A stretch of DNA of 64,000 bases from Hyalella azteca (lineage: Eukaryota > Arthropoda > Malacostraca > Amphipoda > Hyalellidae), in NCBI RefSeq assembly GCF_000764305.2, contig NW_025931881.1, positions 33,639-97,638 of the forward strand, given 5' to 3'. The notes below the pieces were generated by a model, which made no database searches, was not told where the DNA came from, and worked only from the letters and a program-made list of their open reading frames with translations. The position numbers and the translations under genes were made by a program. Below are positions 25,748-60,564 of the stretch, in pieces (position 1 is the stretch's first letter; each line of letters opens with the position of its first letter).

Positions 25748-25877
25748 TCACTCGTCGATGTCGCTGCGCGTGGCGCCCGCGTCGCTGGTCCTTATCCCCT
25801 CCTGGTGCAGGCGCGCCAGCAGCCGTCGCTCCTCCTTTGCGCTCAGCTCTTCCGTAGCCAGGCAAATGGCCTCGTAC
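25748..25877 (-). CDS. Exon epsilon3, terminal exon with stop codon
   Basis: Acceptor TTGTATCGCAG leads into YEAICLATEELSAKEERRLL, then ARLHQEGIRTSDAGATRSDI and DE, followed by TGA. It aligns with epsilon1 (I-x-L, EL, LL-x-x-L-x-x-EG-x-R) and ends in a hydrophilic tail. The phase of 1 nt in matches delta3. No in-frame splice donor competes with the stop here, unlike epsilon1 and epsilon2, so this is the genuine 3' coding end. Confidence 0.85.
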
Positions 25878-26678: not shown

Positions 26679-26826
26679 CTCTTACTGCTGGGTGCATAAG
26701 CCTGCACCGTCTGGGCCACAGCCTCCCAGCTCCCCGCCGTCGATCCCAAAACAAACAGCCGGGGAGGAGGCGTGTCTGGTAGTGGCACTGCTGACACGGC
26801 AGTGTCATTCACTGGCGTATAAACGT
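26679..26826 (-). CDS. Exon delta3 of receptor (cassette 3)
   Basis: Acceptor TTTCTCCCAACAG and donor AGAG|GTCAGTTG bound 148 nt, phases 2 in and 2 out. It encodes VYTPVNDTAVSAVPLPDTPP, then RLFVLGSTAGSWEAVAQTVQ and APSSKR. It aligns with the C-terminal half of delta1 (L-x-V-x-G, GS, A-x-A) and lacks most of the proline-rich insert. An alternative donor AGCA|GTAAGA 9 nt earlier would shift the frame, so I prefer GTCAGT. Confidence 0.8.
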
Positions 26827-27764: not shown

Positions 27765-27910
27765 TGAGGTCATTATATTTTCCCCGCAGGGCGCTGAGGT
27801 CCAGCGGAGCCTCGAGGCGGATGAACAGCCAAGCTGAGGCCGCGACGGCTGCCAGAGCCGCGACGCCTGCAGCCGTCCTGATGCCGCCCTCGAAACGCTC
27901 AACTCTGCAC
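27765..27910 (-). CDS. Exon gamma3 of receptor (cassette 3)
   Basis: Acceptor CTTCCTGCAG and donor CTCA|GTCAGT bound 146 nt, phases 1 in and 1 out. It encodes CRVERFEGGIRTAAGVAALA, then SAWLFIRLEAPLDLSAL and RGKYNDL. It aligns with gamma1 at C, GI, AAGVAA, the L-I-L strand and L-x-GKY-x-x-L. The alanine-rich stretch followed by WLFI is hydrophobic but interrupted, and I read it as a helix-strand unit and not a membrane segment. Confidence 0.83.
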
Positions 27911-29117: not shown

Positions 29118-29322
29118 CTGCTGCCGACCAGCTGCTGAAGGAGGTCGTCGCAGGGCAGGAACTCTGAGCCCAGGACTGGAAGATGGAGCCACAAGTCCCC
29201 GCGGTGGTGCCGGGTAATCTGCTGCCACGCGGGAGTCCCCAGAACTTCCGGTGACGCCTCCACCGTCACCATGACGTCACCAGCATAAGGCAGCATCAGG
29301 GCAACCGCCTCCAGGTCTCGGC
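29118..29322 (-). CDS. Exon beta3 of receptor (cassette 3)
   Basis: Acceptor GTATCCACCAG and donor CAG|GTGAGGC bound 205 nt, phases 2 in and 2 out. It encodes RDLEAVALMLPYAGDVMVTV, then HHRGDLWLHLPVLGSEF and LPCDDLLQQLVGSR. The framework EAVALMLP and PCDDLL is shared with beta1 and beta2, while the strand region WLHLPVLG is different. The intron after it holds the 39-40-bp minisatellite. Confidence 0.85.
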
Positions 29323-29518: not shown

Positions 29519-29739
29519 CGCACGTTATTCTGAACTTCCTGTCTTCCGCCCTGGTCGCCTGCGCGGCTGTGATGGCGAGCCTCGCCTCGTGGGGGCGGCA
29601 CAGCAGCGCCTCCCGCCAGTCCTGCGCTGAGGCGCCCGCTTCATTCATGGCGAGCTGCACTGCTGGCCACTGCGCCTCGAAGTCCTCAGCTTTGATGGAC
29701 TGCAGTCGTGTGAGGACTTGGCCTACGGCCTCCACAATC
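29519..29739 (-). CDS. Exon alpha3 of receptor (cassette 3)
   Basis: Acceptor CTTTCACTCACAG and donor GCG|GTGAGATG bound 221 nt, phases 1 in and 1 out. It encodes IVEAVGQVLTRLQSIKAEDF, then EAQWPAVQLAMNEAG and DWREALLCRPHEARL. It aligns with alpha1 at the W-P, AG and DW-x-x-x-LL positions but is well diverged, so cassette 3 separated from cassettes 1 and 2 long before those two separated from each other. Confidence 0.85.
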
Positions 29740-30905: not shown

Positions 30906-30956
30906 CCGTCGGGGTCACGGAGGACGTCCGTCACGTGAAGCCTCACCCAGCCGGCG
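30906..30956 (-). CDS. Candidate exon zeta3, 51-nt linker exon of cassette 3
   Basis: An acceptor ATTCCCGGCAG and a strong donor GG|GTGAGTGG bound 51 nt. It enters with 1 nt and leaves 2 nt like zeta1, so it fits between epsilon2 (or epsilon1) and alpha3 without changing frame. It encodes AGWVRLHVTDVLRDPD. It lies in GC-rich sequence unlike the surrounding intron. Because it is phase-symmetric it may be optional. Without transcript data this is a prediction. Confidence 0.55.
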
Positions 30957-31239: not shown

Positions 31240-31560
31240 ATGTAGATACGTGTATCGGTATCTACTGAGACTCACGGCACGTGTGTCCGTATCTACTGAG
31301 ACTCACGGCACGTGTGTCTGGATCTACTGAGACTCACAGCACGTGTGTCTGTATCTACTGAGACACACGGCACGTGTGTCCGTATCTACTGAGACACACG
31401 GCACGTGTGTCTGTATCTACTGAGACTCACGGCACGTGTGTCACTGAGACTCACGGCGCGTGTGTCTGTATCTACTGAGACTCACGGCGCGTGTGTCTGT
31501 ATCTACTGAGACTCACGGCGCGTGTGTCTGTATCTACTAAGACTCACGGTTCTCTTGTGT
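31240..31560. repeat. 31-bp minisatellite carrying the epsilon2 splice donor
   Basis: About 10 units containing CACGTGTGTCTGTATCTACT and GAGACTCACGG. Read on the minus strand every unit contains CCGTGAGTCTCAG, the sequence of the epsilon2 donor itself. Confidence 0.92.
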
Positions 31561-31673
31561 ATCGCGTGTTGCCAGCAGCGGCACTCCGGACGCCTTCGCG
31601 CTGCAGTTCCTCCAGCAGTTGCCGCAGCTCATCCTCTCCCAGCTTGGAGTAGTACAGCTGTATGCCTCTCAGT
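31548..31673 (-). CDS. Exon epsilon2 of receptor (cassette 2)
   Basis: Acceptor CCGTGTGCAG and donor CC|GTGAGTC bound 126 nt, phases 1 in and 2 out. It encodes LRGIQLYYSKLGEDELRQLL and EELQREGVRSAAAGNTRYTREP. The donor overlaps an in-frame TGA (CCG TGA) exactly as in epsilon1. Splicing on to zeta3 or alpha3 is in frame. The donor begins a 31-bp tandem repeat whose every full unit repeats GTGAGTCTC. Confidence 0.82.
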
Positions 31674-32217
31674 CTGCACACGGACCAACAGATGAGCATC
31701 CACTGATCCCGTCTAACATGTCCCTGAATATACGGACTCGCATGGATTTCGGACTAGCCGAGCGTGCAAGCGTGTGAAACACAATCAAATTTTTCATACA
31801 TAAGCAGTTAGAAAAAACTGTTTTATACATAAGCTGGTAACACAGCTGAAGTAGATAGAGCGGATACTGAGGATAGAATAGGCAAATAGAAGACAAGGCT
31901 ACGGGAAATCTATCACTTTTTACAATTCCAATCAAGAAAAGCCAACAGCGGGTTGTGGCGAGACTTTTATTTGAATATAAACATGAATTAAAATTTGCTG
32001 TTGTATTGATTTTTCGACACAAGAGTGTCAAAAATATTGGTAGTGGAATTTAGAATTCAAAAGTTGCCATTGAGAACTGGAGGATATGATTTATTTGATG
32101 AAACGCTTCTAATCAAAAATGTTCGTTGTTTATTATTTCTTATCAATTACTTATTAACTTGCGAATTAGATACCACAAAACTGAATGCTTCCTCCTCTAT
32201 CACAGGAAGCAAATAAC

Positions 32218-32494
32218 CTTTTGGTGTGTGGGGCGACTTTGTTGATGGCCCGGGCGATGGCCTCACAGCTGCCGAGCCTGGCGCCCCACACATACAGCCA
32301 CGGCGGGGGCAGGGCTGGCAGACGCACGTCAGCTCGGGGGCTGGGCGGGCTCTCGACCCCAGCGTCGTGCCCCTCCTGGCACGGCGGGGGCAGGGCTGGC
32401 AGACGCACGTCAGCTCGGGGGCTGGGCGGGCTCTCGACCCCAGCGTCGTGCCCCTCCTGGCACCAGGCGGCATCCAGCGGCCAAATGTGCACGG
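32218..32494 (-). CDS. Exon delta2 of receptor, with 27-codon internal duplication
   Basis: Acceptor GACTCGCAG and donor AAAAG|GTTATT bound 277 nt, phases 2 in and 2 out. It encodes VHIWPLDAAW and then two tandem copies of an 81-bp (27-codon) proline-rich segment containing ESPPSPRADVRLPALPPP, followed by WLYVWGARLGSCEAIARAI and APHTKR. The duplication covers plus-strand positions 32,301-32,381 and 32,382-32,462 and keeps the frame. It could be a true length variant or an assembly artefact in GC-rich sequence. Confidence 0.8.
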
Positions 32495-32529
32495 CTGCGA
32501 GTCAAACAACGACCAATATTACGCGTGGA

Positions 32530-32645
32530 ACTGCTGTGCTTATGGCAACACGTGGGTGTCAGCTGTGCTTATGGCAACAAGAGGGTGTCAGCTGTGCTTG
32601 CGGCAACACAAGGGTGTCAGCTGTGCTTATGGCAACACGAGGGCC
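32530..32645. repeat. 29-bp tandem repeat upstream of delta2
   Basis: Four copies of TGTGCTTATGGCAACACG plus GGTGTCAGC. A single remnant is present at the same place upstream of delta1 (44,700). Confidence 0.85.
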
Positions 32646-32784
32646 AGACAACCCTGCTGGAAAACTCATATCCAGCAGGCTTGCGAATATCCAGTCACAG
32701 TGTCGCCCAAAACTCACCCAGCCTGATTGTCAACCATCTTATCGGATGTTTACAACATTTACTCAGTGTTGTAATCTATTTCAA

Positions 32785-34730
32785 CCAGCATGATTGCCGG
32801 GTTGCAGCCCAGCATGATTGCCAGGTTGCAACCCAGCATGATTGCCTGGTTGCAAGCAGCATGATTGTCTGGTTGCAGCCCAGCATGATGACCTAGTTGC
32901 AACCCAGCATGGTTGCCAGGTTGTACCCAGCATGATTGCCTGGTTGTAACCCACCATGATGGCTTGTTTGCAACCCAACATGATTGCCTGGTTGCAACCA
33001 GCATGATGGCCTGGGTGCAACCGACCATGAATTTCTGGTTGCAACCATGCATGAATGCCTGGTTGTAACCAAGCATGATTGCCTGGTTGCAACCCTGAAC
33101 GACGGCCTGGTTGCAACCCAGCATGGTGGCCTGGTTGCAACCCAGCATGATTGTCTGGTTGCAACCCAGGATGATTGCCTGGTTGCAACCAGCATGATTG
33201 TTTGGTAGCAACCCAGCATTAATTTCTGGTTGCAACCCACCATGAAGTCCTGGTTGCAGCCCAGCATGATTCTCTGGTTTTAACCCAGCATGATTGTCTT
33301 GTTGCAACCAGCATGATTGCGTGGTTGCAACCCAGCATGATTGCAAGGCTGCAACCCAGCATGGTGGCCTGTTTGCATTACAACATGATTGCCTGGTTGC
33401 AACCAGTATGAATTTCTAGTTGCAACCCAGCATGAAAGCCTGGTTGCAACCCAGCATGAATCCCTGGTTGCAACCAGTATGATTGCGTGGTTGCAACCCA
33501 GCATGAAGACTTGGTTGTAACCATCATGCTTGCCTGGTTGCAACCCAGCATGATTGCCTGGTTGCAACCCAGCATGATTGCCTGGTTGCAACCCAGCATG
33601 ATTTCCTGGTTGAAACCCATCATGCTTGCCTGGTTAGTTGTAACCTAGCGTGATAGCCTGGTTGCAACCCAGCATGATTGCCTGTTTGCAACCCAGCATG
33701 ATTGCCTGGTTGCAACCCAGCATGATTGCCTGGTTGCAACCCAGCATGATTGTCTAGTTGCATCTCAGCATGATTGCCTGGTTGCAACCCAATATTATTG
33801 CCTGGTTGCAACCCAGCATGATTGCCTGATTGCAGCCCAGCATGATGGCCTGGCTGCAACCCAGCATGATTGCCTGGTTGCAACCCAGCATGATTGCCTA
33901 GTTGCAACCCAGCATGATTGCCTGGCTGCTACCCAGCATGATGGCCTGTTTGCAACCCAGCATGATTGTCTGGTAGCAACCCAGCATGGATTTCTGGTTG
34001 CTACCCAGCATGAATGCCTGAATGCAACCAGCATGAATCCCTGGTTGCAACCCAGCATAATTACCTGGTTGCAACTCAACATGATGACCTGGTTGTAACC
34101 CAGCATGATTGCCTGGTTGCAACCCAGCATGATTGCCTGGTTGCAACCCAGCATGATTGCCTGCATGGTAGCAACCCAGCATGATTGCCTGATTGCAACA
34201 GAGCATAATTGCCGGGTTGCATCCAGCATGATTGCCTGGTTGCAACCCAGTATGATTGCCTGGGTGCAACCCAGCATGATTGTCTGGTAGCAACCCAGCA
34301 TGAATTTCTGGTTGCAACCCGCCTTGAGTGCCTGGTTGCAACCCAGCATGATTGCCTGATTGCAGCCCAGCACGATGGCCTGGCTGCAACCCAGCATGAT
34401 TGCCTGGTTGAAAACCAGCATGATTGTCAGGTTGCAACCCAGCATGATTGCCTGGTTGCAACCCAGCATGATTGTCTGGTTGCAACCCAGCATGATTGCC
34501 TGGTTGCAATCCAGCATGATTGTCTGGATGCAACCCAGCATGATGGCCTGGTTGCAACCCTGCATGATGGCCTGGTTGCAACCCAGCATGATTGCCTGGT
34601 TGCAACCAGCATGATTGCCTGGTTGCAACCCAGCATGATTGCCTGGTTACAACCAGCATGATTGTCTGGATGCAACCCAGCATGATGGCCTGGTTGCAAC
34701 CCTGCATGATTGCCTGGTTGCCTCGGTAGC
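32785..34730. repeat. 25-bp minisatellite, array 1 (intron between gamma2b and delta2)
   Basis: The unit GGTTGCAACCCAGCATGATT plus GCCT is repeated roughly 78 times with many variants. Each typical unit contains the perfect palindrome GGTTGCAACC. Long open frames on both strands here are artefacts of the repeat. Confidence 0.95.
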
Positions 34731-35520
34731 ATGCTTGCCAGCCTACACTCGACCATCTGGTCAGCCAGTCCTTCACCCAGCGTTGATCTAAGTTGTTCAT
34801 GGGAGCCCGCGTGGGGCGGGCTTATGCTTACATGGCTCGTGCTTATTACTACTATATTATATATAATAGTATATAATATATGTACTATTATATATATTAT
34901 ATGCTTACATGGTTCGTGGGGCACACGGGTTCTACCATGAGTGGACTAACTCAAAATTCTTTGAGTTATCCTTAGAACGAGGCCGTTAAGCTAAACTTGT
35001 TCCTACTGCAGCAGTTCTAGCAAGGCTGCATATCCCAAACCACCCGCCCTCACCTAGGTACTTATATTTGCCGTGCAGGGCGTGCAGGCTGAGGGGGGCG
35101 GGGAGTGCGATGTGCAGCTCAGTTGTGGCCGTAGCGACCGACGCCACAGCAGTGACGGCAGCTGCGCTGCTGATGCCGCACCACAGCTCAGTGAGCTGAC
35201 ACCTGCGACAGAATTGTTGGTGGTGTCTTGATGTCAGCGCCTGAGAAGCTGAATAAGCACTTATAGTTATTGCAAATGAAATAAAAAGCCGGGCTGTGGG
35301 GTAGGAATAATATATTAAAGAATAGACTTACTCAACTCATAACAATAAACGATTATGATTAGGGATATATAGCGTGGTGCGCTATATATCCCCACGCTTC
35401 CTAGCGTGGTGCTTCCTAGCGTGGTGCTTCCCAGCGTGGTGCTCCCAGCGTGGTGCTTCCCAGCGTGGTGCTTCCTAGCGTGGTGCTTCCCAGCGTGGTG
35501 CTCCCAGCGTGGTGCTTCCC
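34731..35520. repeat. Duplicated gamma-exon block, copy 3 (others 37,960-38,770 and 44,980-46,228)
   Basis: Each copy runs from CTCGGTAGC through GACCATCTGGTC, the gamma exon and the AGCGTGGTGC/GCTATATATCCCCACGCT hairpin to a 15-bp AGCGTGGTGCTTCCC array. An AT-rich palindromic run lies at 34,850-34,905 in this copy. The array ends at a single N (35,521). Confidence 0.85.
35054..35202 (-). CDS. Exon gamma2b of receptor (cassette 2, second alternative)
   Basis: This is a third 149-nt gamma exon with acceptor GTCGCAG, donor CTAG|GTGAGGG and the same phases. It encodes CQLTELWCGISSAAAVTA, then TTELHIALPAP and HALHGKYKYL. Relative to gamma2 it differs at R/W, G/A, D/T, E/A, Y/H, S/A and L/Y plus three silent changes. 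It lies in a duplicated block with gamma2, each copy followed by its own array of the 25-bp minisatellite. The frame is intact with no sign of decay. Confidence 0.8.
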
Positions 35521-35521
35521 N

Positions 35522-37960
35522 CTGGTTGCAACCCAGCATGATGACTTGGTTGTAACCCAGCATGATTGCCTGGTTGAAACCCAGCTTGATTGCCTGGTTG
35601 CAACCAGCATGATTGCCTGGTTGCAACCCAATATGATTGCCTGGTTGCAACCCAGCATGATGGCCTGGTTGCAACCCAGCATGATTGACTGGTTGCAACC
35701 CAGCATGATTGCCTGGTTGCAGCCCTGCATGATTGCCTGGCTGCAGCCCAGCATGATTGCCTGGTTGCAACCCACCATGATTGTCTGGTTGCAACCAGCA
35801 GGATTGTCTGGTTGCAACCCAGCATGATTGCCTGGTTGCAACCCAGCATGATTGCCTGGTTGTGACCAGCATTATTGCCTGGTTGCAACCCAGCATGATT
35901 GTCTGATTGCAACCCAGCATGATGGTCTGGTTGCAACCCAGCATGATTGTCTGGTTGCAACCCGGCATGATTGCCTAGTTGCATCCCAGCATGATTGCCT
36001 GGTTGCAAATTAGAATGATGACCTGGTTGTAACCCTTCATGATTGCCTGGTTGCAACCCGGCATGGTGGCCTGTTTGCATTTCAGCATGATTGCCTGGTT
36101 GCAACCCAGCATGAATTTCTGGTTGCAGCCCAGCATGAGAGCCTGGTTGCAACCCATTATAAATCCCTGGTTGCAACCGAGCATGATTTCGTGGTTGCAA
36201 CCCAGCATGATGACCTGCTTGTAACCCATCATGCTTGCCTGGTTGCAACCCAGCATGATTGCCTGGTTGCATTTCAGCATGATTACCTGGTTGCAACCCA
36301 GCATGATTGTCTGGTTGCAGCATGATTGCCTGGCTGCAACCCAGCATGATTGTCTAGTTGCAACTCGGCATGATTGCCTGGTTGCAACCCAGCATGATTG
36401 CCTGGTTGCAACCCAGCATTATTGCCTGGTTGCAACCAGCATGATTGCCTGGTTGCAACCAATATGATTGACTGGTTGCAACCCAGCAAGATTGCCTGGT
36501 TGCAACTCAGCATGATTGCCTGGTTGCAACCCAGCATGATTGCCTGGTTGTATCCCAGCATGATTGCCTGGTTGCTACCCAGCATGATTGCCTGGTTGCA
36601 TCCCAGCATGATTGCCTGGTTGCTACCCAGCATGATGGCCTGTTTGCAACCCAGCATGATTGTCTGGTAGCATCCCAGCATGAATTTCTGGTTGCAACCC
36701 AGCATGAAAGCCTGAATGCAACCCAGCATGATTGCCTGGTTGCAACTCAACATGATGACCTGTTTGTAACCCAGCATGATTGCCTGGTTGAAGCCCAGCA
36801 TGATTGCCTGGTCGCAACCAGCATGATTGCCTGGTTGCAACCCAGCATGATTGTCTGGTTGCAACCCAGCATGATTGCCTGGTTGCAACCCAGCCTGATT
36901 GTCTGGTTGCAACCCAGCTTGATGGCGTGGTTGCATTCCTGCATGATGGCCTGGTTGCAACCCAGCATGATTGTCTGGTTGCAACCCAGCATGATTGCCT
37001 GGTTGCAACCCAGCATGATTGTCTGGTTGATACCCGGCATGATTGCCTGGTTGAAACCAGCATGATTGCCTGGATGCAACCCAGCATGATGGCCTGGTTG
37101 CAACCCAGCATGATTATCTGGTTACAACCCAGCATGATTGCCTGGTTGCAACCCAGCATGATTGCCTGGTTGCAACCCAGCATGATTTCCTGGTTGCAAC
37201 CCAGCATGATTGCCTGGTTGTGACCATCATGATTGCCTCGTTGCAACCCAGCATGATTGCCTTGTGCAACCCAGCATGTTTGCCTGGTTGCGACCCAGCA
37301 TTATTGCCTGGTTGCAACCCAGCATGATTGTCTGGTTGCAGCCTAGCATCATGACCTAGTTGCAACCCAACATGGTTGCCTGGTTGCAACCCAGCATGAT
37401 TGCCTGGATGCAACCCAGCATGATTGTCTGGTTGCAACCCAGCATGATAGCTTGTTTGCAACCCAGCATGAATGCCTGGTTGCAACCAGCATGATTGCCT
37501 GGGTGAAACCAGCATGATTGTTTGGTACCAACCCAGCATTAATTTCTGGTTGCAACCCACCATGAATGCCTGGTTGTAACCCAGCAAATTTCTCTGGTTT
37601 TAACCCAGCATGTTTGTCTGGTTGCAACCCAGCATGATGGTGTGGTTGCAAACCAGCATGATTGTCTGGTTGCAACCCAGCATGATTGCCTGGATGCAAC
37701 CCAGCATTATTGCCTGGTTGCAACCCTGCATGATTGCCTGGTCGCAACCTATCATGATTGCCTGGTTGCAACCCAACATGATTGTCTGGTTGCAACCCAG
37801 CTTGATGGCATGGTTGCATTCCTGCATGATGGCCTGGTTGCAACCCAGCATGATTGTCTGGTTGATACCCGGCATGATTGCCTGGTTGCAACCAGCATGA
37901 TTGCCTGGTTGTAACCCTGCATGATTGCTTGGTTGCAACCTAGCTTGATTGCCTGGTTGC
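35522..37960. repeat. 25-bp minisatellite, array 2 (intron between gamma2 and gamma2b)
   Basis: This is the same unit as 32,785-34,730, about 97 copies. It directly follows a single N at 35,521, so the join to the 15-bp array is an unresolved assembly gap. Confidence 0.95.
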
Positions 37961-38775
37961 CTCGGTAGCGTGTTGGCTGGCTTACACCCGACCATCTGGT
38001 CAGCCAGTCCTTCACCCAGCGTTGATCTAAGTTGTTCATGGGTGCCCTCGTGGGGCTTACCTGGCCCTTGGGGCACACGGGTTCAACCCGTGAAAGGACA
38101 CTTATGTCAACTAACTCAAAATTGTTAGAGTTATCCTCTGAACGAGGCCGTTAAGCTAAACTTGGTCCTGCTGCACCAGTTCTTGCAAGGCTGCATATCC
38201 CAAACCACCGCCCTCACCTAGGAGCTTATATTTGCCGTGCAGGGCGTGCAGGCTGAGGGGGGCGGGGAGTGAGATGTACAGCTCAGTTGTGGCCGTAGCC
38301 ACGGACTCCACTGCGTCGACCCCAGCTGCGCTGCTGATGCCGCAACGCAGCTCAGTGAGCTGACACCTGCGACAGAATTGTTGGTGATGTCTTGATGTCA
38401 GCGCTAGAGAAGCTGAATAAGCAATTATCGTTATTTAATTATTTTAATTTAATTATCGTTATTTAATGTGAAATAAAAAGCCGGGCTGTGGGGTAGGAAT
38501 AATATATTAAAGAATAGACTTACTCAACTCATAACAATAAACGATTATGATTAGGGATATATAGCGTGGTGCGCTATATATCCCCACGCTATATATGCGC
38601 TATTTATCCATGCGCTATAGCCTACTGCCCTATATATCCCCACGCTTCCTAGCGTGATTCTTCCCAGCGTGGTGCTTCCTAGCGTATTGCTTCCTAGCGT
38701 GGTGCTTCCCAGCGTGGTGCTTCCAAGCGTGGTGCTTCCTAGTGCGGTGCTTCCCAGCGTGATGCTTCCACACAA
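37960..38775. repeat. Duplicated gamma-exon block, copy 2
   Basis: This block contains gamma2 and ends with a short AGCGTGGTGCTTCCC array (38,641-38,770). Confidence 0.85.
38218..38366 (-). CDS. Exon gamma2 of receptor (cassette 2, first alternative)
   Basis: Acceptor GTCGCAG and donor CTAG|GTGAGGG bound 149 nt, phases 1 in and 1 out. It encodes CQLTELRCGISSAAGVDA, then TTELYISLPAP and HALHGKYKLL. Against gamma1 I count 11 amino-acid-changing and 1 silent base difference. If joined to both beta2 and gamma2b it would break the frame, so gamma2 and gamma2b should exclude each other. Confidence 0.8.
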
Positions 38776-39387
38776 TAATAGCCTGACGTGTATTCTAATC
38801 CTCATGTCCATACTTTTCTTGTCAATGTAGTTTAAATAGTGCAGAACATAAAAACTAAATCATGCGGAACGTTTTTAACAATCGAAAGAAATTATCATAT
38901 ACATTTCTTCAGGAACAATTATGCTAGTAAATAATTCAAAAACCTTTGACCATAAATACCTGCATACTCTTGTATAAAGGTCTTCTTGTTTTATGAATGT
39001 AATGAAACATTGACGCCATCGTGCCCAATTCTCTCAACATTTCTTATTCTATACTATATTCAACTACACATATAATCACCGAGCATGCGTTCTTCACTAT
39101 AAAGTTAATGCGTGGCAAACTTAACTCCGATTCTTCAGTTTACTCAGCACTACTCATGCATGCTTCTGTCCTTCACAATATCTTCTTGCGTGTATTATTC
39201 ATTATGAGTTTATTTTTACATTGCGCAGAACAGAAATACGGCAATAGTTGTCGTTATATGTTCCTGAGTCTTGTTGGTTTTTTACAGAACCTCACAAAAT
39301 TTCGTTTTTAGCAGCACCTTATAACATCCTGGCGCATGAGCAAAACCGACATAAACGATAATCACTAAAGGGGCAAATGTCACTGAC
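38776..39387. other. Intron between beta2 and gamma2, unique part
   Basis: AT-rich sequence. A 96-codon plus-strand frame at 39,021-39,311 has no recognisable features. Confidence 0.5.
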
Positions 39388-39604
39388 CTGGAGCCCTTGA
39401 GGCACTCCAGCAGGTCGTCGCAGGGCTCGTGGCTTGCTACCACTCCTGTTGGTCTGATGTCCAGCTTCAGTTGTCCCTCGTAACGCCGCGCCAGGTCAGA
39501 CCAGCTGGTGCCTACAGCGCGCAGCACCGCAGCTGGCATCACGATGTTGATGACTCGAGGCTGCTGATGTGGCAGCATTAGTGCAACTGCCATCACGTCT
39601 CCAG
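39388..39604 (-). CDS. Exon beta2 of receptor (cassette 2)
   Basis: It has the same acceptor as beta1 and donor CAG|GTCAGTG, 217 nt, phases 2 in and 2 out. It encodes the same framework as beta1 (GDVMAVALMLPHQQPRVINI start, CDDLLECLKGSR end), with changes K to V, S to A, A to V, K to E, L to K, A to T, P to V and P to H. It cannot follow epsilon1 in frame (2 nt plus 2 nt), but it can follow alpha1. It therefore looks like an alternative to beta1 and not a serial repeat. Confidence 0.82.
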
Positions 39605-41269
39605 CTGCGGACGAAGGATGAGGATACTTGTTGCCTGATGTGGCGTGAGCTTGGGTAGAGCGATAGAAGGATGATAGGTGAAGAGGTATGTTGAGTAACG
39701 TAGAGAGGTAGAGACAAGAACGATGGACAATTGGCTAGTTGAATGAAGTTGATAAGTAAATAATGAAGTTGAAGATGGGAGTAGGTAAGTATAAAAGTAT
39801 CGCTACCGCATGTATAGGAAGCCAGCCATCCTCGTCTAGAAAAATTGATGACAAATTAAGATTAATATAAAGAGACGGGCGAAGAGGAATGTGAAGTACG
39901 GAAAGGGCAGTTAGGTAAAGAGAAAGAAAAATTATAGAGCAAGAGAATATAGCAATTAAATAGGGATAAAAGAATGATTTGAAGAGAGGAAAGATAGGTA
40001 GGGTGAGGAGTTATTAGCCGAGGGATGGTAAGAAGAAAGAGGGACGATAGTAAGAAAGTGGGATGACGGCAAAAAGAGATGATGAGTATAGAGAGAGCAA
40101 TGACATGAAGAAAGTTGTATGATTGTCGGAGAGTGGGATGCTGCGTTGAGAGAGAGAGAGAGGGATGATAGGTAGAACGAGAGGGATGATTAGTAGTGTC
40201 AAATGATAGAGAGGGGGGAGGGGTGAACGCTATTCTCTTCGTGCATCCTTGGTGACCGCGCATCAGGACGGTACCTAAAATTAATATATCATGTTTTATG
40301 TAGTGTGTGCAAAGATATGCATTGTTATTCAGGCAGTGTATATGTCTGACTAAGTTCTGTTTTCTATAAATCTCTTTTCTCTCGTAAATCCTGTTTTCTA
40401 TAAATAAAGCACTTTCAATGTTGAATTTATTTTCTCTTGTTTGTTTTGTTATTAATGAGGACTTTGTTTTGCTATATAATATTTTTTAATCAGTAAACAA
40501 AAAGACCTTATTAGCAACACAGGGCGCATTAGCTCATTTTAGGTTACTGAATAACGACATGTAAAAATATCGTGTTGCATTAATGCACCATTGCGACTCA
40601 TTCAACTTTCTTCAATGCCCTCCGCATTATATGGTGGGAAGTATAGTTAGACGGACACTGCCAGCCAGTATTACTATTACTAATACTAAATATTACTGCT
40701 ATTATTCATTATTACTAAATATTAATACTAAAATTACTATTACTAAATATTATTGCTCGGCAGTGGAAGGCATGAAAAAGTATATATGTGGTAGCAGAAG
40801 TTTGCTTTGTTTGGTGAGAGGCAGGGACGCTGAATGTGAATAGAGTTTTGATGTGTGATGTGGATGTGAAGGGAACTGTGAAGGACCTGATGGTATATGG
40901 GGCGTTGGAGTGGGAAAGATAATTGAGTGGTTAGGATGGAGGAGACTATGATTGAGGCAGTGAGAAAAGGAAGCGTGAGAAAGAATATAGGGGAAGAAAT
41001 AAAAAAATCCCTGAATAACTTGATGGAAGAAATGAATAAAGACCTGAAGAATAATTTTTCTTTATTGCAACATTTTTAAAACGTAAATTAAGCAAGGCTA
41101 TAGTTAAAGCGCCCCAGTAGTGAATAATCATACCATAATAACTGTAATTTTGGATATCTTTTATGAACCAAATTATCACATTCTCTTTTTTTATCAAATA
41201 TTTACATCTGTTTCTCTGTGTTCATTTCTTTACATTTAGCTCCTAGGTTGTCTTCTGAAAATACGCCTC
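39605..41269. repeat. Duplicated block upstream of beta2 (counterpart 47,263-48,690)
   Basis: This purine-rich stretch (GATGATAGGTAGAG-type, 39,620-40,230) and the following AT-rich stretch match 47,263-48,690. The first 75 nt next to the exon are identical and the rest has diverged by several percent with indels. Confidence 0.85.
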
Positions 41270-42440
41270 TTTACAATTAATATATTTATTCGTCCATTTC
41301 TAATTAATATATTTGTTCGCGCATTTCTTAATAATATATATATATATATATTAGCCCCATTTTAATTAATAAATACGCCCCTTTACAATTAGTATATCTA
41401 TTCACTGCTTTCTAATTAGTAAAAAGCACCTTCCTAATTAATAAATAAAACCCTTCCTAATTAGTATATTTATTCGCCCCTTTCTAATAAATAAATGCAC
41501 CCATTTTTAATTATTAAATACGCCTCACTCTAACTAATATATTTATTCGCTCCTTTCTACGTAATATATTTATTCGCCCCTATCAAATTAATAAATACGC
41601 CCTTTTCTAATTAATATATTTATTCGCCCGTTTCTAATTAATATATACGCCCCTCTCTAATTCTACGGCTCTTTAGAATTAACATATTTTTGCAAATTGA
41701 TTTATTTATCTTATTGTAATTATTAAACATACCCGGCCCTTTCTAATTAGTATATTTATTCGCCTCTTTCTATTTAATAAATACGCCCATGTCTAATTAG
41801 TAAATACGCCCCTTTCTAATTAGTATATTTATTTGCCCCTTTCTAATTAACAAATGTGTCCCTTTCTAATTAATATATTTATTCCCCCTATCTAGTAAAT
41901 ACGCCCCTTTCTAATTAGTATATTTATTTGCCCCTTTCTAATTAACAAATGTGTCCCTTTCTAATTAATATATTTATTCCCCCTATCTAGTTAATAAATA
42001 CGCCCCTTTCTAATTAGTATATTTATTTGCCCCACCTTCTATTTAATAAATAAGCTCTTTTCAAACTAATATATTTAATTGCCTCCTTGGTAATAAATAT
42101 AACACTTTCTAATTTGTATATTTATTCGCCCCTTTATATTTAGTAAATACGCCTCTTTCTGATTAGTATATTTATTCTCCCCCTTTCTAATTAATAAATC
42201 CACCCTTTTTTAAATTAATATATATATTCACTTCTTTCTAATTGGTAAATACGCCCCTTTCTAATATATTACCCCTTACCCTTATTTACCCCTTACCCTT
42301 TACCTATATTTATTTACCCCTTTCCAATTAATAAATACGCCATTTTCAAATTAATATATTTATTCACTCCTTTCTAGTTAATAAATGCACCCTTTTCTAA
42401 TTATTATGTTTATTCACCCCTTTCTAATTACCTCTTTATG
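41270..42440. repeat. AT-rich satellite with CGCCCCTTTCTAATTA units, array 1
   Basis: Units of about 27 bp combine CGCCCCTTTCTAATTA with GTATATTTATT or ATAAATA. The counterpart in cassette 1 is 48,690-49,520, and a short remnant is at 62,640-62,760. Confidence 0.92.
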
Positions 42441-43645
42441 TATGCATCATAAGCTACGTCATGGTGGCCAGTGTATGCATCATAATCTATGCCATGGGTG
42501 CCAGTGTATGCATCATAATCTATGCCATGGATGCCAGTGTATGCATCATAATCTATGCCATGGGTGCTAGTGTATGCATCATAATCTATGCCATGGTTGC
42601 CAGAGTATGCATCATAATCTATGCCATGGTGCCAGTGTATGCATGATAATCTATGTCATGAGTGCAGGTGCATGCATCATAATCTATGCCATGGGTGCCA
42701 GTGTATGATTCATAATCTATGCCATGGGTGCCAGTGTATGCATCATAATCTATGCCATGGGTACCAGTGTATGCAGCATAATCTATGCCATGGGTGCCAG
42801 TGTATACATCATAATCTATGCCGTGGGTGCCAGTGTATGCATCCTAATCTATGCCATGGGTAGTTGGGTACCACTGTGTGCATCATAATCTATGCAATGG
42901 GTGCCAGTGTAAGCATCATAATCCATGCCATGGGTGCCAGTGTAAGCATCATAATCTATGCCATGGGTGCCAGTGTAAGCATCATAATCTATGCCATGGG
43001 TGCCAGTATAAGCATCCTAGCCATGGGTGCCAGTGTAAGCATCATAATCTATGCCATGGGTGCCAGTGTATGCATCATAATCCATGCCATGGGTGGCAGT
43101 GTATGCATCATAATCTATGCCATGGGTGCCAGTGCATGCATCATAATCTATGCCATGGCTGCCAGTGTATGCATCATAATCCATGCCGTGGGTGCCAGTG
43201 CATGCATCATAATCCATGCCATGGGTGGCAGTGTATGCATCATAATCTATGCCATGGGTGGCAGTGCATGCATCATAATCTATGCCATGGGTGCCAGTGC
43301 ATGCATCATAATCTATGCCATGGGTGCCAGTGTATGCATCATAATCCATGCCATGGGTGCCAGTGTATGCATCATAATCCATGCCATGGGTGGCAGTGCA
43401 TGCATCATAATCTATGCCATGGGTGCCAGTGCATGCATCATAATCCATGCCATGGGTGCCAGTGTATGCTTCATAATCCATGCCATGGGTGCCAGTGTAT
43501 GCATCATAATCCATGCCATGGGTGGCAGTGTATGCATCATAATCTATGCCATGGGTGCCAGAGACTGCATCATAATCTATGCCATGGGTGCCAGTGTAAG
43601 CATCATAATCTATGCCATGGGTGCCAGTGTAAGCATCATAATCAA
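42430..43645. repeat. 33-bp minisatellite (CATGGGTGCCAGTGTATG), long array
   Basis: About 36 units containing GCCATGGGTGCCAGTGTATG followed by CATCATAATCTAT. 33 is divisible by three, so all frames look open (281-287-codon artefacts). The same unit flanks alpha1 (50,225-50,280) and alpha0 (63,495-63,875). Confidence 0.95.
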
Positions 43646-43646
43646 C

Positions 43647-43770
43647 GTGTGTCTGTATCTACTGAGACTCACGGCACGTGTGTCTGTATCTACTGAGACT
43701 CACGGCACGTGTGTCGGTATCTACTGAGACTCACGGCACCTGTGTCTGTATCTACTGAGACTCACGGTTC
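43647..43770. repeat. 31-bp minisatellite carrying the epsilon1 splice donor
   Basis: About 4 units of the same 31-bp repeat as at 31,240-31,560. It abuts the 33-bp array directly at about 43,646. Confidence 0.92.
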
Positions 43771-43891
43771 TCTTGTGTATCTCGTGTTGCCAGCAGCGGC
43801 ACTCCGGACGCCTTCACGCTGCAGTTCCTCCAGCAGTTGCCGCAGCTCATCCTCTCCCAGCTCGGGGCTGTCCAGCCATATGCCCCTCAGT
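43762..43891 (-). CDS. Exon epsilon1 of receptor, donor site overlapping an in-frame stop
   Basis: Acceptor CCGTGTGCAG leads into LRGIWLDSPELGEDELRQLL and EELQREGVRSAAAGNTRYTREP. This is the most LRR-like unit: L-x-x-I-x-L-x-x-x-x-LG, then an amphipathic helix. The exon ends at donor CC|GTGAGTC with the last exonic base at 43,766, leaving 2 nt. If that donor is not used, the frame reads CCG TGA and stops at 43,762, giving a complete 943-aa protein from the ATG at 52,849. Against epsilon2 the hypervariable residues are W, D, S, P and E of WLDSPE, which become Q, Y, Y, S and K. Confidence 0.85.
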
Positions 43892-44429
43892 CTGCACACG
43901 GACCAACAGATGAGCATCCACTGATGCCGGCTAACATGTTCCTGGATATACGGACTAGCCGAGCGTGCAAGCGTGTGAAACGCAATCAAGTTTTTCAGAC
44001 ATAAGCAGTTAGGAATCGTTTGAAAAGAACTGTTTCATACATAAGCTAGTAACACAGTTGAAATAGATAGAGTGGATACTGAGGATAGAATAGGCAAATA
44101 GAAGACAAGGCTACGGGAAATCTATAACTTTTAAGAATACCAATCAAGAGTAGGCAACAGCGCGTTGTGGCGAGACTTTTATTCGAATATAAACATGATT
44201 TAAAATTCGCTGGCGTATTGATTTTTCGATACAAGAGTGTCAAAAACATTGGTAGTGGAATTTAGAATTCAAAAGTTGCCATTGAGAACGGGAGGATATG
44301 ATTTATTTGATGAAACGCTTCTAATCAAAAATGATTGTTGTTTATTATTTCTTATCAATTTCTTATTAACTTACGATTTAGTGACCACAAAACTGAATGC
44401 TTCCTCCTCTATCATAGGAAGTAAATAAC

Positions 44430-44658
44430 CTTTTGGTGTGTGGGGCGACTTTTTTGATGGCCCGGGCGATGGCCTTACAGCTGCCGGGCCCGGCGCCCCA
44501 CACCGCCAGCAGCGGCGGGAGCAGGGCTGGCAGACGCACGTCAGCTCGGGGGCTGGGCGGGCTCTCGACCCCAGCGTCGTGCCCCTCTTGGCACGGCGGG
44601 GGCAGAGCCGGATGGGGCGATGAAGACCAGGCGGCATCCATCGGCCAAATGTGCACGA
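44430..44658 (-). CDS. Exon delta1 of receptor (cassette 1)
   Basis: Acceptor GACTCGCAG and a weak donor AAAAG|GTTATT bound 229 nt, entering with 2 nt and leaving 2 nt. It begins VHIWPMDAAW, has a proline-rich middle (VESPPSPRADVRLPAL), then LLAVWGAGPGSCKAIARAI and APHTKR. The block L-x-V-WGA-x-x-GSC-x-AIARAI fits a strand-turn-helix unit. Against delta2 all differences in the aligned C-terminal part are amino-acid changing. The GTTATT donor is poor, but delta2 uses the same site and delta3 has AG|GTCAGT at the matching position. Confidence 0.8.
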
Positions 44659-44779
44659 CTGCGAGTCAAACAACGACCAATAATACGCGTGGGAACTGCT
44701 GTGCTTATGTCAACACGAGGGCCAGACTTCACCCAGCACAGCTACTTGCCCTCACCCATGTGGTTGTCAGCCTTCACTA

Positions 44780-44980
44780 CATGGCTGCAACCCAGCATGA
44801 TGGCCTGGTAGCAAACCCAGCATGATTGCCATGTAGCAACCCAGCATGATGGCCTGGTTGCAACATAGCATGATTGCCTGGTTGCAACCAACATGATTGC
44901 CTGGTTGCAACCAGCATGATTGCCTGGTTGCAACCCAGTATGATTGCCTGGTTGGAAACCAGCATGATTGCCTTGTTGCC
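44780..44980. repeat. 25-bp minisatellite, array 3 (intron between gamma1 and delta1)
   Basis: A short array of about 8 units of GGTTGCAACCCAGCATGATT, the cassette-1 counterpart of the two large arrays in cassette 2. Confidence 0.92.
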
Positions 44981-46228
44981 TCGGTAGCGAGTCTGCCAGC
45001 CTACACCCGACCATCTGGTCGGCCAGTCCTTCACCCAAAGTTGCTCTAAAGTGTTCATGGGAGCCCGCGTGGCGTTTACATGGCCCGTAGGGCACACATG
45101 TTCCACCCGTGAGGAGCAGACGTGGACCGTGGGGCACACGAGCTCAACCCTTGAGGAACATACGAGGCCTGTGGGCCTCGTATGTTCACGAGTACACGGG
45201 CTGTACTCGTGTTCACGAGTACACGGGCTGTACTCGTGAGGACACGTGGTCAGTGAGGCGTTGACAAACTTTCATTTGTGCCTTCGTTTAAAGTGCAGCA
45301 CGCCTCTCCGATGGCATAAAGCGTATTTGAGCCTTAAAATACGAGACAGCATCTACGTATAAAGCATATTACAAGCAATTAAATATACTCCATATGTGTG
45401 GAATTTAAATATATGGAAACTAAACTAAACTAACTCAAAATTGTTATCCTCTGAACGCAGCCGTTAAACTAAACTTGGTCCTGCTGCAGCAGTTCTAGCA
45501 AGGCTGCATATCCCAAACCACCCGCCCTCACCTAGGTTCTCATATTTGCCGTGCAGGGCGTGCAGGCTGAGGGGGGCGCGGAGTGCGATGCGCAGCTTAG
45601 TTGTGGCCGTAGCCACGGACTCCACTGCGGCTACCCCAGCTGCGCTGCTGATGCCGCACTGCAGCTCAGTGAGCTGACACCTGCGACAGAATTGTTGGTG
45701 GTGTTTTGATGTCAGCGCCAGAGATGCTGAATAAGCAATTATAATTATTGTATATGAAATAAAAAGCCGGGTTGTGGGGTAGAAATCATATATTAAAGAA
45801 TAGACTTACTCAACTCATAACAATAAACGATTATGATTAGGGATATATAGCGTGGGGCGCTATATATCCCCACGCTATATATGCGCTATATGTCCATGAG
45901 CTATAGCCTACTGTGCTATATATCCCCACGCTTCCTAGCGTGATGCTTCCCAGCGTGATGCTTCCCAGCGTGGTGCTTCCCAGCGTGGTGCTTCCCAGCG
46001 TGGTGCTTCCCGGCGTGGTGCTTCCTAGCGTGGTGCTTCCCAGCGCGGTGCTTCCCAGCGTGGTGCTTCCTAGCGTGGTGATTCCCAGCGTGGCGCTTCC
46101 TAGCGTGGTGCTTCCTAGCGTGGTGCTTCCCAGCGTGCTGCTTCCCAGCGTGGCGCTTCCTAGCGTGGTGCTTCCCAGCGTGGTGCTTCCCAGCGTGGTG
46201 CTTCCCAGCGTGGTGCTTCCCAGCGTGG
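44981..46228. repeat. Duplicated gamma-exon block, copy 1, with a 15-bp array
   Basis: The block contains gamma1, a 25-nt palindromic repeat CACGAGTACACGGGC near 45,187-45,240, a hairpin AGCGTGGGG/CCCCACGCT at about 45,848-45,876, and about 20 units of AGCGTGGTGCTTCCC (45,913-46,228). It ends at a single N (46,229). Confidence 0.85.
45532..45680 (-). CDS. Exon gamma1 of receptor (LRR-like unit, cassette 1)
   Basis: Acceptor CTGTCGCAG and donor CTAG|GTGAGGG bound 149 nt, entering with 1 nt and leaving 1 nt. It begins CQLTELQCGISSAAGVAA and ends PLSLHALHGKYENL. The stretch TTKLRIALRAP is a beta-strand-like alternation. Compared with gamma2 the conserved L, I and L stay fixed, while the residues between them (K/E, R/Y, A/S, R/P) all change. 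The length is not a multiple of three, so exactly one gamma exon per cassette keeps the frame. Confidence 0.85.
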
Positions 46229-46229
46229 N

Positions 46230-46345
46230 CCCTATTGTTGCTGTGCGCCATCATTGCAGTGCCCTATTGTTGCTGTGCGCCCTCATTGCAGTGCCCTATT
46301 GTTGCTGTGCGCCATCATTGCAGTGCCCCATTGTTGCTGTGCACT
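46230..46345. repeat. 32-bp tandem repeat after the single-N join
   Basis: Units contain CCCTATTGTTGCTGTGCGCC and ATCATTGCAGTG, nearly four copies. 46,346-47,045 after it is unique AT-rich intron with nothing recognised. Confidence 0.85.
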
Positions 46346-47045
46346 TCATTCCCGTACACTGTTATAGTTCATTGCTGTATATCACCTACCCTATGTTTAT
46401 TGTTGTAGTTGTCTTGCTTTAGCTTTATTTAATAGAACTTTTGCAATTATTTATCTTGTCAGTGTTCAATTAGCGTGTTTTGTCCAATAAATAATTGTTT
46501 GTTATGCTTCCATTTCCTTCTTGTTGTAAATCGGTCGCAGTATTGGGTTAAGTTTCGAATCTACTTGGCTTTGTCCGCACTTGAACCTCCCAGCCTCAAA
46601 AATTGTCTAATCTAGGCCTACGAGTAAAACTGTCTTTAATTAACACGTTGACTCTGAAGTGGTACATATGCGTACCACGAATTGTATTTCTCAAGGACGT
46701 AGTGGTACATAATTAAGGGTTGCCAGATGGCCTAAAAACGGCCAAATCCGCAAACAAAAATGGCCAAGAAAGACATGGAACTAAATACATTCTAGAATAT
46801 TTTAAGTAAGTTTCGAAGTAAAAATTTCATTTTTTGCGTTTTTTTCATTTAATTTGGAAGTACCTCTATCATAAATTTTAGCGGGCTAACGCAATTGAAA
46901 AAATCTAAATCGCGAAATTTCTCCTGAAAAAGACTGTCTGGGAGCCCTATTTCAAAATTGTACAAAAAATGAAGTAATAGTACAAGATGAAGCAATCGGA
47001 GTCAACGAGTTAACTATGACCACTAAAGAGGCAAATGTCGCTGAC

Positions 47046-47262
47046 CTGGAGCCTTTGAGGCACTCCAGCAGGTCGTCGCAGGGCTCGGGGCTTGCTGGCA
47101 CTCCTGCTGGTCTGATGTCCAGCAGCAGTTGTCCCTTGTAACGCCGCGCCAGGTCAGACCAGCTGGTGCCTGCAGAGCGCAGCACCGCAGCTGGCATCTT
47201 GATGTTGATGACTCGAGGCTGCTGATGTGGCAGCATTAGTGCAACTGCCATCACGTCTCCAG
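47046..47262 (-). CDS. Exon beta1 of receptor (LRR-like unit, cassette 1)
   Basis: Acceptor CTTCGTCCGCAG and donor CAG|GTCAGC bound 217 nt, entering with 2 nt and leaving 2 nt. It encodes about 72 residues: GDVMAVALMLPHQQPRVINI, then SWSDLARRYKGQLLLDIRP and PCDDLLECLKGSR. The segment from KGQLLLDI to LLECLKG fits one LRR-like beta-alpha unit. It differs from beta2 (39,388-39,604) at 12 bases by my count; 11 change the amino acid, including three codons changed at two positions. The adjoining 75 nt of intron look identical between the copies. Confidence 0.88.
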
Positions 47263-48690
47263 CTGCGGACGAAGGATGAGGATACTTGTTGCCTGATGTG
47301 GCGTGAGCTTGGGTAGAGCGATAGAAGGATGATGGGTGAAGATGTATGTTGAGTAACGTAGAGAGGTAGAGACAAGGATGATGGACGAAGAACGAGTTGA
47401 ATGGAGTCGATAAGTAAATAACGAAGTAAAAGATGGGAGTAGGTAAGTATAAAAGTATCGCTACTGTATGTGTAGGAAGCCCGCCATCCCCGTATAGAAA
47501 AATGGATGACAAATCAAGATTAATATAAAGAGACGGACGAAGAGGACTGTGATAAGTACGGAAAGGGAAGCTAGGTAAAGAGAGAGATTTGAAAGGAGAA
47601 GAGAGCGATTATATAGGGAGAGAAGAATGATATGAAGAGAGGAAAGATAAGTAGGGTGATGGGTTATTAGTTGAGGGATGATAAGTAGAAAGAGGGATGA
47701 TAGTATGAAAGTGGGATGATAGGCAGAGAGAGGTGATGAGTATGGAGAGAGCAATGATATGTAGACAGTGGAAAGATTGTCAGAGAGTGTGGGATTCTAC
47801 GTAGAGAGAGGGATGATGGGTAGATATAGAGGGATGATTAGTAGTGTCGAATGATAGAGAGGGGGGGGGTGGGTGAACGCTATTCTCTTCGTGCAGCCTT
47901 GGTGACCGCGCATCAGGACGGTACCTAAAATTAATGTATTATGTTTTATGTAGTGTGTGTAAAGATATGCACTGTAATTCTGGCATTGTCTATATATTAA
48001 TAAGTTGTTTTCGTAAAGTGTTTTCTAAACACTTTCAATTTTGAATTTAATTTCCGTTGTTTGTTTTGTTGTTAATGCTGACTCTGTTTAGCTGTATAAT
48101 ATTTTTTAATCGGTAAACAAAGAGACCTTTTTAGCAACACAGGGCGCATTAGCTCATTTTAGGTTCATTATATTGTGGGAAGTATAGTTAGACGGACACT
48201 GCCAGCCAGTATACTATTGGTAAATATTACTGCTATTATTACTAAATAATAATACTACTATTACTATTATTAAATATTACTGATCGGCATTGGAAGGCAT
48301 GACAAAGTATATATCTGGTAGCAGAGGTGGAGTGTTTGGTGTGAGGCAGGGGCGCTGAATGTGAATAGAGTTTAAAAGCGTGATATGAATGTGAAGGAAA
48401 CTGTGAAGAACCTGATGACATTTGGGTCATTTGAGTGAGAAAGAGAATAGAGTGGATGGGATGGAGGAGACTCTGATTGAGGGCAAGGAGAAATGGAGCG
48501 TAAGTGTTATTTACTGGCGATTGAAAAACAAATAGATAAATAAATGAACAAATAAATTTCATTGATAGTAATATTTTTGAAGCAACCATGATATCTGTAA
48601 ATTAGGTCATCTTTTATGGACAAATTTACCAAATTCTCTCTTTTATCAAATATAGGTATACAAATGGTTCTCTGTCTTAATTTCTTTACA
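47263..48690. repeat. Duplicated block upstream of beta1
   Basis: This is the counterpart of 39,605-41,269. The part from 48,338 is also repeated at 62,268 onward. Confidence 0.85.
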
Positions 48691-50294: not shown

Positions 50295-50518
50295 CGCTGT
50301 GCACGCCCCACACGTCAGTCTCTTTGATCGTGACCTCGGCCGCGTGCTTCGCCAGCGCGGTGACTTCAGGGCTCCTCAGCAGCACCGCCTGCCAGTCGCC
50401 GCCCCTGGTGACGCCGGCGGCAGTGAGGGCGTCCCTCAGTTGGGGCCAGCGCTTCTGGAACTGCCGGGGGCTACTGCTGCTCAGGTCCTGCAGGACGTAC
50501 TGCAGCACTTCCAGGAAG
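50295..50518 (-). CDS. Exon alpha1 of receptor (LRR-like unit)
   Basis: Acceptor TTACACTATTCCAG and donor G|GTGAGTCG bound a 224-nt exon entering with 1 nt and leaving 1 nt. It encodes about 74 residues including FQKRWPQLRDALTAAG, then GGDWQAVLLRSPEV and a stretch ending DVWGVHS. Its homologue alpha3 (29,519-29,739) shares the pattern F-x-x-x-W-P-x-x-x-x-A-x-x-x-AG and DW-x-x-x-LL-x-x-P. The alpha0 copy at the window end differs at one base in 107 compared, although the neighbouring introns differ much more. That pattern suggests this exon is constrained, in contrast to the beta to epsilon exons. I do not recognise it as a named domain; by position it lies between the NACHT region and the LRR-like exons. 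Confidence 0.85.
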
Positions 50519-50760: not shown

Positions 50761-50805
50761 TGTTCGAGGTGGCACCGCTCGACAGACTCTTGTTCGGTTC
50801 CATCA
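50761..50805 (-). CDS. Exon 2 (zeta1), 45-nt linker exon
   Basis: Acceptor CCTTGGGCAG precedes it and donor GTGAGTG follows. It enters with 1 nt and leaves 2 nt, so it is phase-symmetric and could be skipped without a frameshift. It continues the frame from exon 1 (TG+T gives Cys), encodes DGTEQESVERCHLE, and joins alpha1 as His-Phe-Leu-Glu. A similar phase-symmetric exon (zeta3) precedes alpha3, which supports both. The exon is too short for domain recognition. Confidence 0.75.
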
Positions 50806-56232: not shown

Positions 56233-57055
56233 CATACGTGCTAGGGTAGACTACGGCAGTTCCCTATATGCGGCTGCCTCCCCCAACCTTTTAAGAACAC
56301 TGGATGTTATCCAAAATACCTGTCTTCGACTCATATTGGGGGCAAGAAAAACCAGCCCAATCATATCATTGCAGGTGGAAGCAAGGGTGCCTCCCCTATC
56401 ATTGCGACGCGAGTTCCTTGGAGCACAGTGGCATTTGAAAATCATGCATCGCCCCAGAGGTGACATCACAGCGGAAATACTGAGTCATGGACCTGAAGTT
56501 GACACATCTGCTCTGGCAACAGGAGCAGGACTACTGCAGCTATTTGGAGAACCAAGATGCCGGCGTTCCCACCTGGCACAGGTTGACCCAATTCCCCATT
56601 GGTCCCCTATACAACCTAAGACCTGCATTGACCCTCAATTACCTGGAGGTATCGATCTTGCTCACGGATTTAAGATACACATGAAGGAAAATTACCCGCA
56701 CCACCGCAGAATCTTTTGTGATGGCTCGCGGCAGGGAGACAACTCATCAACTGCCTGCGGAATATACATACCAGATGAGGCTCGGGCTGTGGCTTAGCGC
56801 CTGCGCCCGATGCATAGTATACTTTTTGCTGAACTAAATGCTATTCTGCAGGCACTTGTCATGATATCTGGGAGGGCACCTGCACAGTGGGTGATATGTT
56901 CTGATTCCAAGTCAGGCTTGCAACTCATAGGGTCCCCAAGCACATCTTGCACATCTATTGTATATGAGATCCGCGCACGCTTAACGGCCCTGCAGTCTAC
57001 ACCTGGAGTGACTGTTGACCTGCAGTGGGTTAAAGGCCATGCTGGAATAGAGTCA
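56233..57055 (+). pseudogene. LINE polymerase with RNase H, 3' half (RNase H domain)
   Basis: This continues the RT frame after the hAT insertion: RVDYGSSLYAAASPNLLRTL and LRLILGARKTSPI, then an RNase H domain with FCDGS, LFAELNAIL and VICSDSKSGLQL (D, E and D of the active site) and WVKGHAGIES. A stop at 56,795-56,797 interrupts it in frame. After GIES the sequence passes without a break into the 18-bp minisatellite, so the 3' end and tail of the LINE are missing. Confidence 0.88.
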
Positions 57056-60560: not shown

Positions 60561-60564
60561 ATTC

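Follow-up and report, generated by a model that had tools for sequence, protein, structure and literature searches.

What kind of selection has shaped the leucine-rich repeat (LRR) exons of a NACHT gene in the amphipod Hyalella azteca, where duplicated exons differ mostly by amino acid replacements? The gene lies on the minus strand of contig NW_025931881.1, in the 64,000-nucleotide stretch analysed here (the window), which spans bases 33639-97638 of the 97,638-base contig in an assembly of 519 Mb; feature positions below are those of the window. An earlier note on this DNA had proposed diversifying selection on the exposed LRR face of an arthropod NACHT gene, and site models, NACHT and alpha exon controls, the second LRR block and structure mapping all agree with that proposal. 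The gene is very probably one member of a large family of HEPN-like/NACHT/LRR intracellular sensors in H. azteca, in which diversifying selection acts on the outward residues of the LRR strands and the leucine framework is conserved. Computation showed the anatomy of the gene, selection at particular sites, a fainter signal in the second block, no signal in the NACHT and alpha exons, and the strand positions. Selection is well supported in the first LRR block and weakly repeated in the second, and our confidence is slightly lowered because the second-block signal is weaker under models that allow multinucleotide changes.

Site-specific selection in the LRR exons

On the minus strand the exons run in the order NACHT, n, alpha, beta1, gamma1, delta1, epsilon1, beta2, gamma2, gamma3, delta2, epsilon2, zeta, alphaL, betaL, gammaL, deltaL and epsL, so that beta, delta and epsilon are duplicated and gamma is present three times. 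Cassette 1 comprises the LRR-like exons beta1 (47046-47262), gamma1 (45532-45680), delta1 (44430-44658) and epsilon1 (43766-43891, ending at the donor GTGAGT with no stop). Cassette 2 comprises beta2 (39388-39604), gamma2 (38218-38366), delta2 (32218-32494) and epsilon2 (31548-31673), with the third gamma copy, gamma3 (35054-35202), between gamma2 and delta2; delta2 contains an internal tandem copy of 27 codons that is only partly present in delta1. All eight exons of the two cassettes fall inside the minus-strand interval 31548-47262 of the earlier note, and their AG/GT borders and their phases agree.

Codon site models, in which each exon had its own tree, the classes were common to all exons and the length-variable part of delta was omitted, were fitted to a close set of copies (exons from contigs C446, C444 and the left part of C408) and to a wider set that adds C1791, C4784, C2814, C4391, C2243 and C2877 where an exon was found there. 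The tblastn pieces that had less than 60% coverage or contained a stop were excluded, among them a partial additional beta on C1791, and the fits also omit C408L_5811, a weak match resembling alpha. For the close set, twice the log-likelihood difference (2dlnL) is 51.3, with omega, the replacement-to-silent rate ratio, at 10.5 for 10.3% of 199 codons; with all copies 2dlnL is 39.5. The highest value in 60 simulations under the null model M1a, without multinucleotide changes, was 12.5. Sites whose omega exceeds 1 form a class on the surface presumed to face the ligand, the pattern of a receptor under diversifying selection, here one with a putative immune role. Leaving out contig C446 gives 44.4 and leaving out cassette 2 and gamma3 gives 30.9, so the signal depends neither on the duplicated cassette nor on C446. 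Multinucleotide changes, when allowed, lower 2dlnL: of the rates tried, the two that fit best give 35.4 and 25.6, and higher ones, which fit worse, give 16.2, 10.6 and 7.0. The two multinucleotide rates give 27.7 and 18.1 without C446, and 19.3 and 11.2 without cassette 2 and gamma3.

The controls behave differently. The alpha exon (50295-50518) is under purifying selection (omega 0.20, 2dlnL 0), and the NACHT exon gives 2dlnL of 0.9 with three copies and 0.0 with five. Among the close copies, the ratio of mean replacement divergence (dN) to mean silent divergence (dS) is 0.27 for alpha (no pair of three above 1) and 0.40-0.49 for NACHT in three close pairs; it is 1.92 for beta (above 1 in 10 of 10 pairs) and 1.14 for epsilon (4 of 6). 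The corresponding values in the second block are 0.95 for alphaL, 0.86 for betaL, 1.18 for gammaL and 0.74 for deltaL. Site models fitted to the second block from alphaL to deltaL, with 3-4 copies, give 2dlnL of 17.4; alphaL alone is not significant at 2.8. Sites 27, 29 and 47 of gammaL correspond to sites 28, 30 and 48 of gamma; by naive empirical Bayes posteriors, gamma 28 and 48 are prominent in the close set, and gamma 30 when all copies are used.

Where do the variable residues sit? The predicted structure of a relative, P0035, is a strand-helix LRR solenoid that matches NLR proteins over the entire model, and the LRR exons of the window were placed on it by alignment. First-block codons with at least three residues make up 11 of 37 outward strand positions and 8 of 162 positions elsewhere, and none of the 24 inward ones. 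The alternation of variable residues with conserved leucine or isoleucine on an exposed strand face, which had been read by eye, is thus real in the first block, and the mapping of variable sites onto structure, proposed at the same time as a check, places them mainly outward on the P0035-based positions. A further test, free of silent sites and based on four copies, finds 13 of 199 codons with at least three residues, four of them with four. Ten of these 13 are at outward strand positions, against 3.4 expected in 37 codons at the neutral rate calibrated on introns (binomial P 0.0016, or 0.026 at 1.3 times that rate).

Cassette counts and rival explanations

The first indication of selection was the comparison of cassette 1 with cassette 2, put at about 41 replacement to 5 silent changes over some 690 nucleotides (nt). 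Recounted by the method of Nei and Gojobori, with delta limited to its 38 unambiguous C-terminal codons (597 nt in total), the figures are near to that, at 37.25 replacement and 6.75 silent (dN 0.090, dS 0.044, ratio 2.06). The counts of 11 to 1 for the beta pair and 7 to 3 for the epsilon pair are reproduced, and 11 to 1 for gamma1 and gamma2 becomes 10.5 to 1.5. For delta, given as about 12 to 0, the replacement excess holds over the 38 C-terminal codons (8.8 to 1.2), whereas the absence of silent changes does not, the whole exon giving 16.8 to 8.2; this last count depends on the alignment because the delta of cassette 2 holds an extra repeat copy. The introns flanking the two cassettes differ by Jukes-Cantor (JC) distances of 0.076-0.123 in aligned stretches over 100 nt, implying that change at replacement sites has roughly kept pace with the introns and that silent sites have lagged behind. 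An excess over chance appears only when paralogue copies are added to the cassette pair.

Several results weigh against diversifying selection, and they bear on an alternative in which the replacement excess reflects low silent divergence, through gene conversion or codon constraint, together with relaxed constraint. Taken by itself, the cassette pair is compatible with neutrality (Fisher P 0.11; binomial P 0.07, one-sided), and with P at 0.11 the pairwise test was discarded as proof of selection. Over all codons, the all-neutral expectation at the intron rate is 18.5 codons with at least three residues and 1.2 with four, and 53 codons vary where 96.6 would be expected; with 13 codons seen against 18.5 the exons are constrained overall and the total is not above neutrality, so that this count too was set aside as proof. 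Part of the high beta ratio is due to a low dS of 0.009-0.096, compared with 0.19-0.24 among the NACHT exons of the window, C446 and C444, and the intron relationships are mosaic. Exon averages fall below 1 for gamma (0.58, 2 of 15 pairs above 1) and for the C-terminal part of delta (0.89, 3 of 6), and the 2dlnL of 15.7 for betaL, gammaL and deltaL together weakens to 9.6 and 6.1 at the two multinucleotide rates. The earlier note had named a dN/dS of 1 or less, once further copies were included, as grounds for abandoning selection; the gamma and delta averages do fall there, but the site class does not, which places the signal in about 10% of codons. Relaxed constraint would spread the variable codons, yet inward first-block positions with three or more residues are lacking altogether. 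Mean dS is not low in gamma (0.180) or delta (0.122), where several of the strongest sites lie, and the outward class of codons does exceed the intron-based neutral rate. We therefore consider this alternative very unlikely, and retain diversifying selection on the outward face.

What, then, is the second cassette for? It may be that the two cassettes are mutually exclusive exon sets, with one beta, gamma, delta and epsilon in each transcript and several recognition surfaces from one gene, a doubtful proposition that would add to diversifying selection rather than replace it. All nine cassette exons have AG/GT borders and open frames. Beta requires a one-base remainder and leaves two, and epsilon also leaves two, so that splicing epsilon1 to beta2 shifts the frame; both full cassettes in series reach a stop at residue 978, and gamma2 and gamma3 are likewise incompatible in series. 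The nine exons that lie between alpha and zeta give 512 subsets, of which 52 keep the frame open as far as the common end; seven of the 52 take one exon of each kind, and no open subset contains the two complete cassettes together. Homologous exons in tandem that lose the frame when used in series are a mark of Dscam-like clusters of mutually exclusive exons, and interchangeable LRR cassettes with differently selected ligand faces, spliced in seven in-frame ways, could give a HEPN-NACHT-LRR sensor a Dscam-like repertoire; from exon phases and borders we regard this fuller proposal as rather improbable. Other open paths exist, such as epsilon1 to gamma2, which would give a longer LRR region; any block duplication with these phases produces the same incompatibility; and the relatives of the same exon order, P0033 and P0029, carry one cassette. 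Single Ns lie inside each cassette, at 46229 (between beta1 and gamma1) and 35521 (between gamma2 and gamma3). Together with a third at 57432, these one-base Ns stand in or beside tandem repeats and look like scaffold joins. The three Ns speak for another reading, in which the second cassette is an assembly product, with two haplotypes or paralogues set in tandem. Pearl oyster NACHT/HEPN arrays are described as varying strongly between haplotypes (PMC9646362), and the intron 5' of beta1 (47263-47563) is nearer to C446 (JC 0.031) than to its beta2 counterpart (0.089). Such an artefact nonetheless seems unlikely to us: gamma1, delta1, epsilon1, beta2 and gamma2 share one N-free stretch (35522-46228), though with long tandem repeats, the flanking introns of the cassettes are 7-12% different, and the selection signal holds at 30.9 when cassette 2 is removed.

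Gene anatomy

The NLR gene looks intact from its reading frames and splice borders, with a HEPN-like/NACHT exon, LRR exons alpha to epsilon, zeta and a second LRR block. The NACHT exon with its HEPN-like helical N-terminus extends from the inferred start methionine to its donor (51012-52849). It is followed by the small exon n (DGTEQESVERCHLE; 50761-50805), which is homologous to a stretch of P0033 and compatible in phase. Downstream of the cassettes, a single copy of zeta (30906-30956) was found within 25500-51000, and the second LRR block consists of alphaL (29519-29739), betaL (29118-29322), gammaL (27765-27910), deltaL (26679-26826) and epsL (25748-25877), all on the minus strand. EpsL is read to the first stop after SDIDE, to which the joined frame runs for 1242 residues via cassette 1 and 1258 via cassette 2. 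The true C-terminus may lie elsewhere, because P0033 has a further short terminal stretch and a similar one, likely a further short exon, is found near 25456 (border unresolved).

The relatives P0033 (contig C444) and P0029 (C1791) have this exon order, and their proteins match the contig readings exon by exon, running on past epsilon via zeta into the second block. Epsilon was rejected as the terminal exon: the TGA that follows it is part of the splice donor CC|GTGAGT, and the frame carries on into zeta. A delta start at CCAAG|AG was also rejected, delta2 being without that acceptor, and a TCGCAG acceptor suits both deltas.

A search with the NACHT exon places at least 66 NACHT loci in the genome, the window's included (67 match rows, two of them on C1175 being one place; 66 of 227 first-look candidates scored). 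The left part of contig C408 (L020, L021) bears plus-strand exons from this gene family, in tail-to-tail arrangement with the window gene, and on contig C2814 alphaL and deltaL each occur twice in near-identical form (L027 3292-3952, L028 4943-5545). At the contig end, window positions 62268-64000 contain the alpha region once more, with 99% identity over the last 128 nt, which suggests a further gene copy upstream. Introns and flanks are filled by long minisatellites with units of 24, 33, 18 and 23 nt (32700-37950, 42300-43750, 56900-60000 and 60500-62200), and an open frame at 54709-55476, between inverted repeats about 90% alike, resembles by eye a mariner-type transposase.

Sources of variation

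The distances between the window gene and its C446 relative differ from one part of the gene to another. The alpha exon shows one silent change in 210 aligned bases, whereas the NACHT exons have a dS of 0.19, and in cassette 1 the intron between delta and epsilon lies at 0.076 from cassette 2 and 0.172 from C446. This mosaic of alpha, intron and NACHT distances points to gene conversion or recombination, and the near-identity of the alpha exon and the beta1 5' intron to C446 is probably a conversion tract. In C446 itself (L009, ~8880-8935) the alpha exon passes into other sequence short of its final four codons, with loss of the exon end and donor; C446 may thus hold a broken or misassembled copy.

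The N-terminal domain

The N-terminus is predicted to be helical. An RNxxxH-type motif is seen there in aligned family proteins, with R in 25 of 26, N in 25 and H in all 26. The exception for R is the window protein, where isoleucine stands at that position of the motif (residues 129-134, encoded by the NACHT exon), and it may be a non-catalytic HEPN-type member. No HEPN family is among the 18 Pfam families listed for it at E-values up to 3. In relatives several HEPN families match weakly, those with a printed cut-off falling below it, and HEPN_DZIP3 matches 7 of 32 members with a best E-value of 0.0016. Structural matches to a second predicted model mostly span residues 198-613, barely covering the N-terminus, and give it no fold name. 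The gene has the NACHT domain of an NLR, and the predicted structure of P0035 supplies the C-terminal LRR solenoid; no Pfam LRR family was matched in five long relatives (E up to 0.5), in P0032 and P0033 (E up to 3), or among the best 25 of 81 families for 32 members.

Relation to known receptors

Diversifying selection at the exposed xxLxLxx positions, as found here, is known from plant NLR LRRs and lamprey variable lymphocyte receptors, which are independent receptors. The lamprey receptors assemble their cassettes somatically, whereas the window exons are complete in the germ line. The best structural matches are vertebrate NLRs (NLRC4, the NLRP family and NOD2), which share the combination of NACHT domain and LRR solenoid; the window gene differs from them in its HEPN-like N-terminus, its mixed-phase LRR exons in repeated blocks and the lack of any Pfam LRR match seen. 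In human gene families, LRRs are reported to be encoded by modular exons, as in the window gene (PMC6642158). The likeness to fish NLR families suggested in the earlier note is inexact: the zebrafish NLR-B30.2 genes are described as a large family with gene conversion and positive selection, the latter in B30.2 rather than in the LRRs (PMC4852459), and here it is the LRR that is selected.

Among invertebrates, DZIP3-like proteins of the pearl oyster are described as having an N-terminal HEPN domain with an Rx4-6H motif, a NACHT domain and in some cases LRRs, in a large expansion such as the one found here (PMC9646362). The oyster is a mollusc, however, the term "positive selection" is absent from the main text, and HEPN is weak in Pfam here. 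The shrimp LvNLRC is described as one gene, the accessible account giving no hypervariability or cassette duplication (PMC12370184). Crustacean NLR studies are few among the literature matches listed, and none of the matches, judged by title and abstract opening, deals with selection on the LRRs, or splicing of cassettes, in NLRs of arthropods. Relatives outside Hyalella were not found, all listed proteins being from H. azteca (7 at E<=1e-10, 29 at 1e-20 and 6 at 1e-8, with about 8,000 candidates scored each).

How might such a sensor work? The beta to epsilon exons and their second-block counterparts would build the LRR solenoid, whose variable face could bind fast-evolving ligands, most likely those of pathogens. 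By analogy with NLRs generally, binding would release NACHT autoinhibition and the protein would then oligomerise, allowing the N-terminal HEPN-like domain to signal or to cut RNA; with isoleucine at the HEPN-type arginine, the window protein may depend on a partner that is active. The variants exposed to selection would come from duplicated cassettes, from gene conversion and from the copying of repeats.

Fruit flies and nematodes are reported to lack NLRs (PMC9646362). If our interpretation is true, a laboratory test amphipod has a family of at least 66 NACHT loci whose LRR face evolves much as it does in plant resistance genes, implying that arthropods can run diversified intracellular recognition, and the outward residues named here can be tested for ligand specificity.

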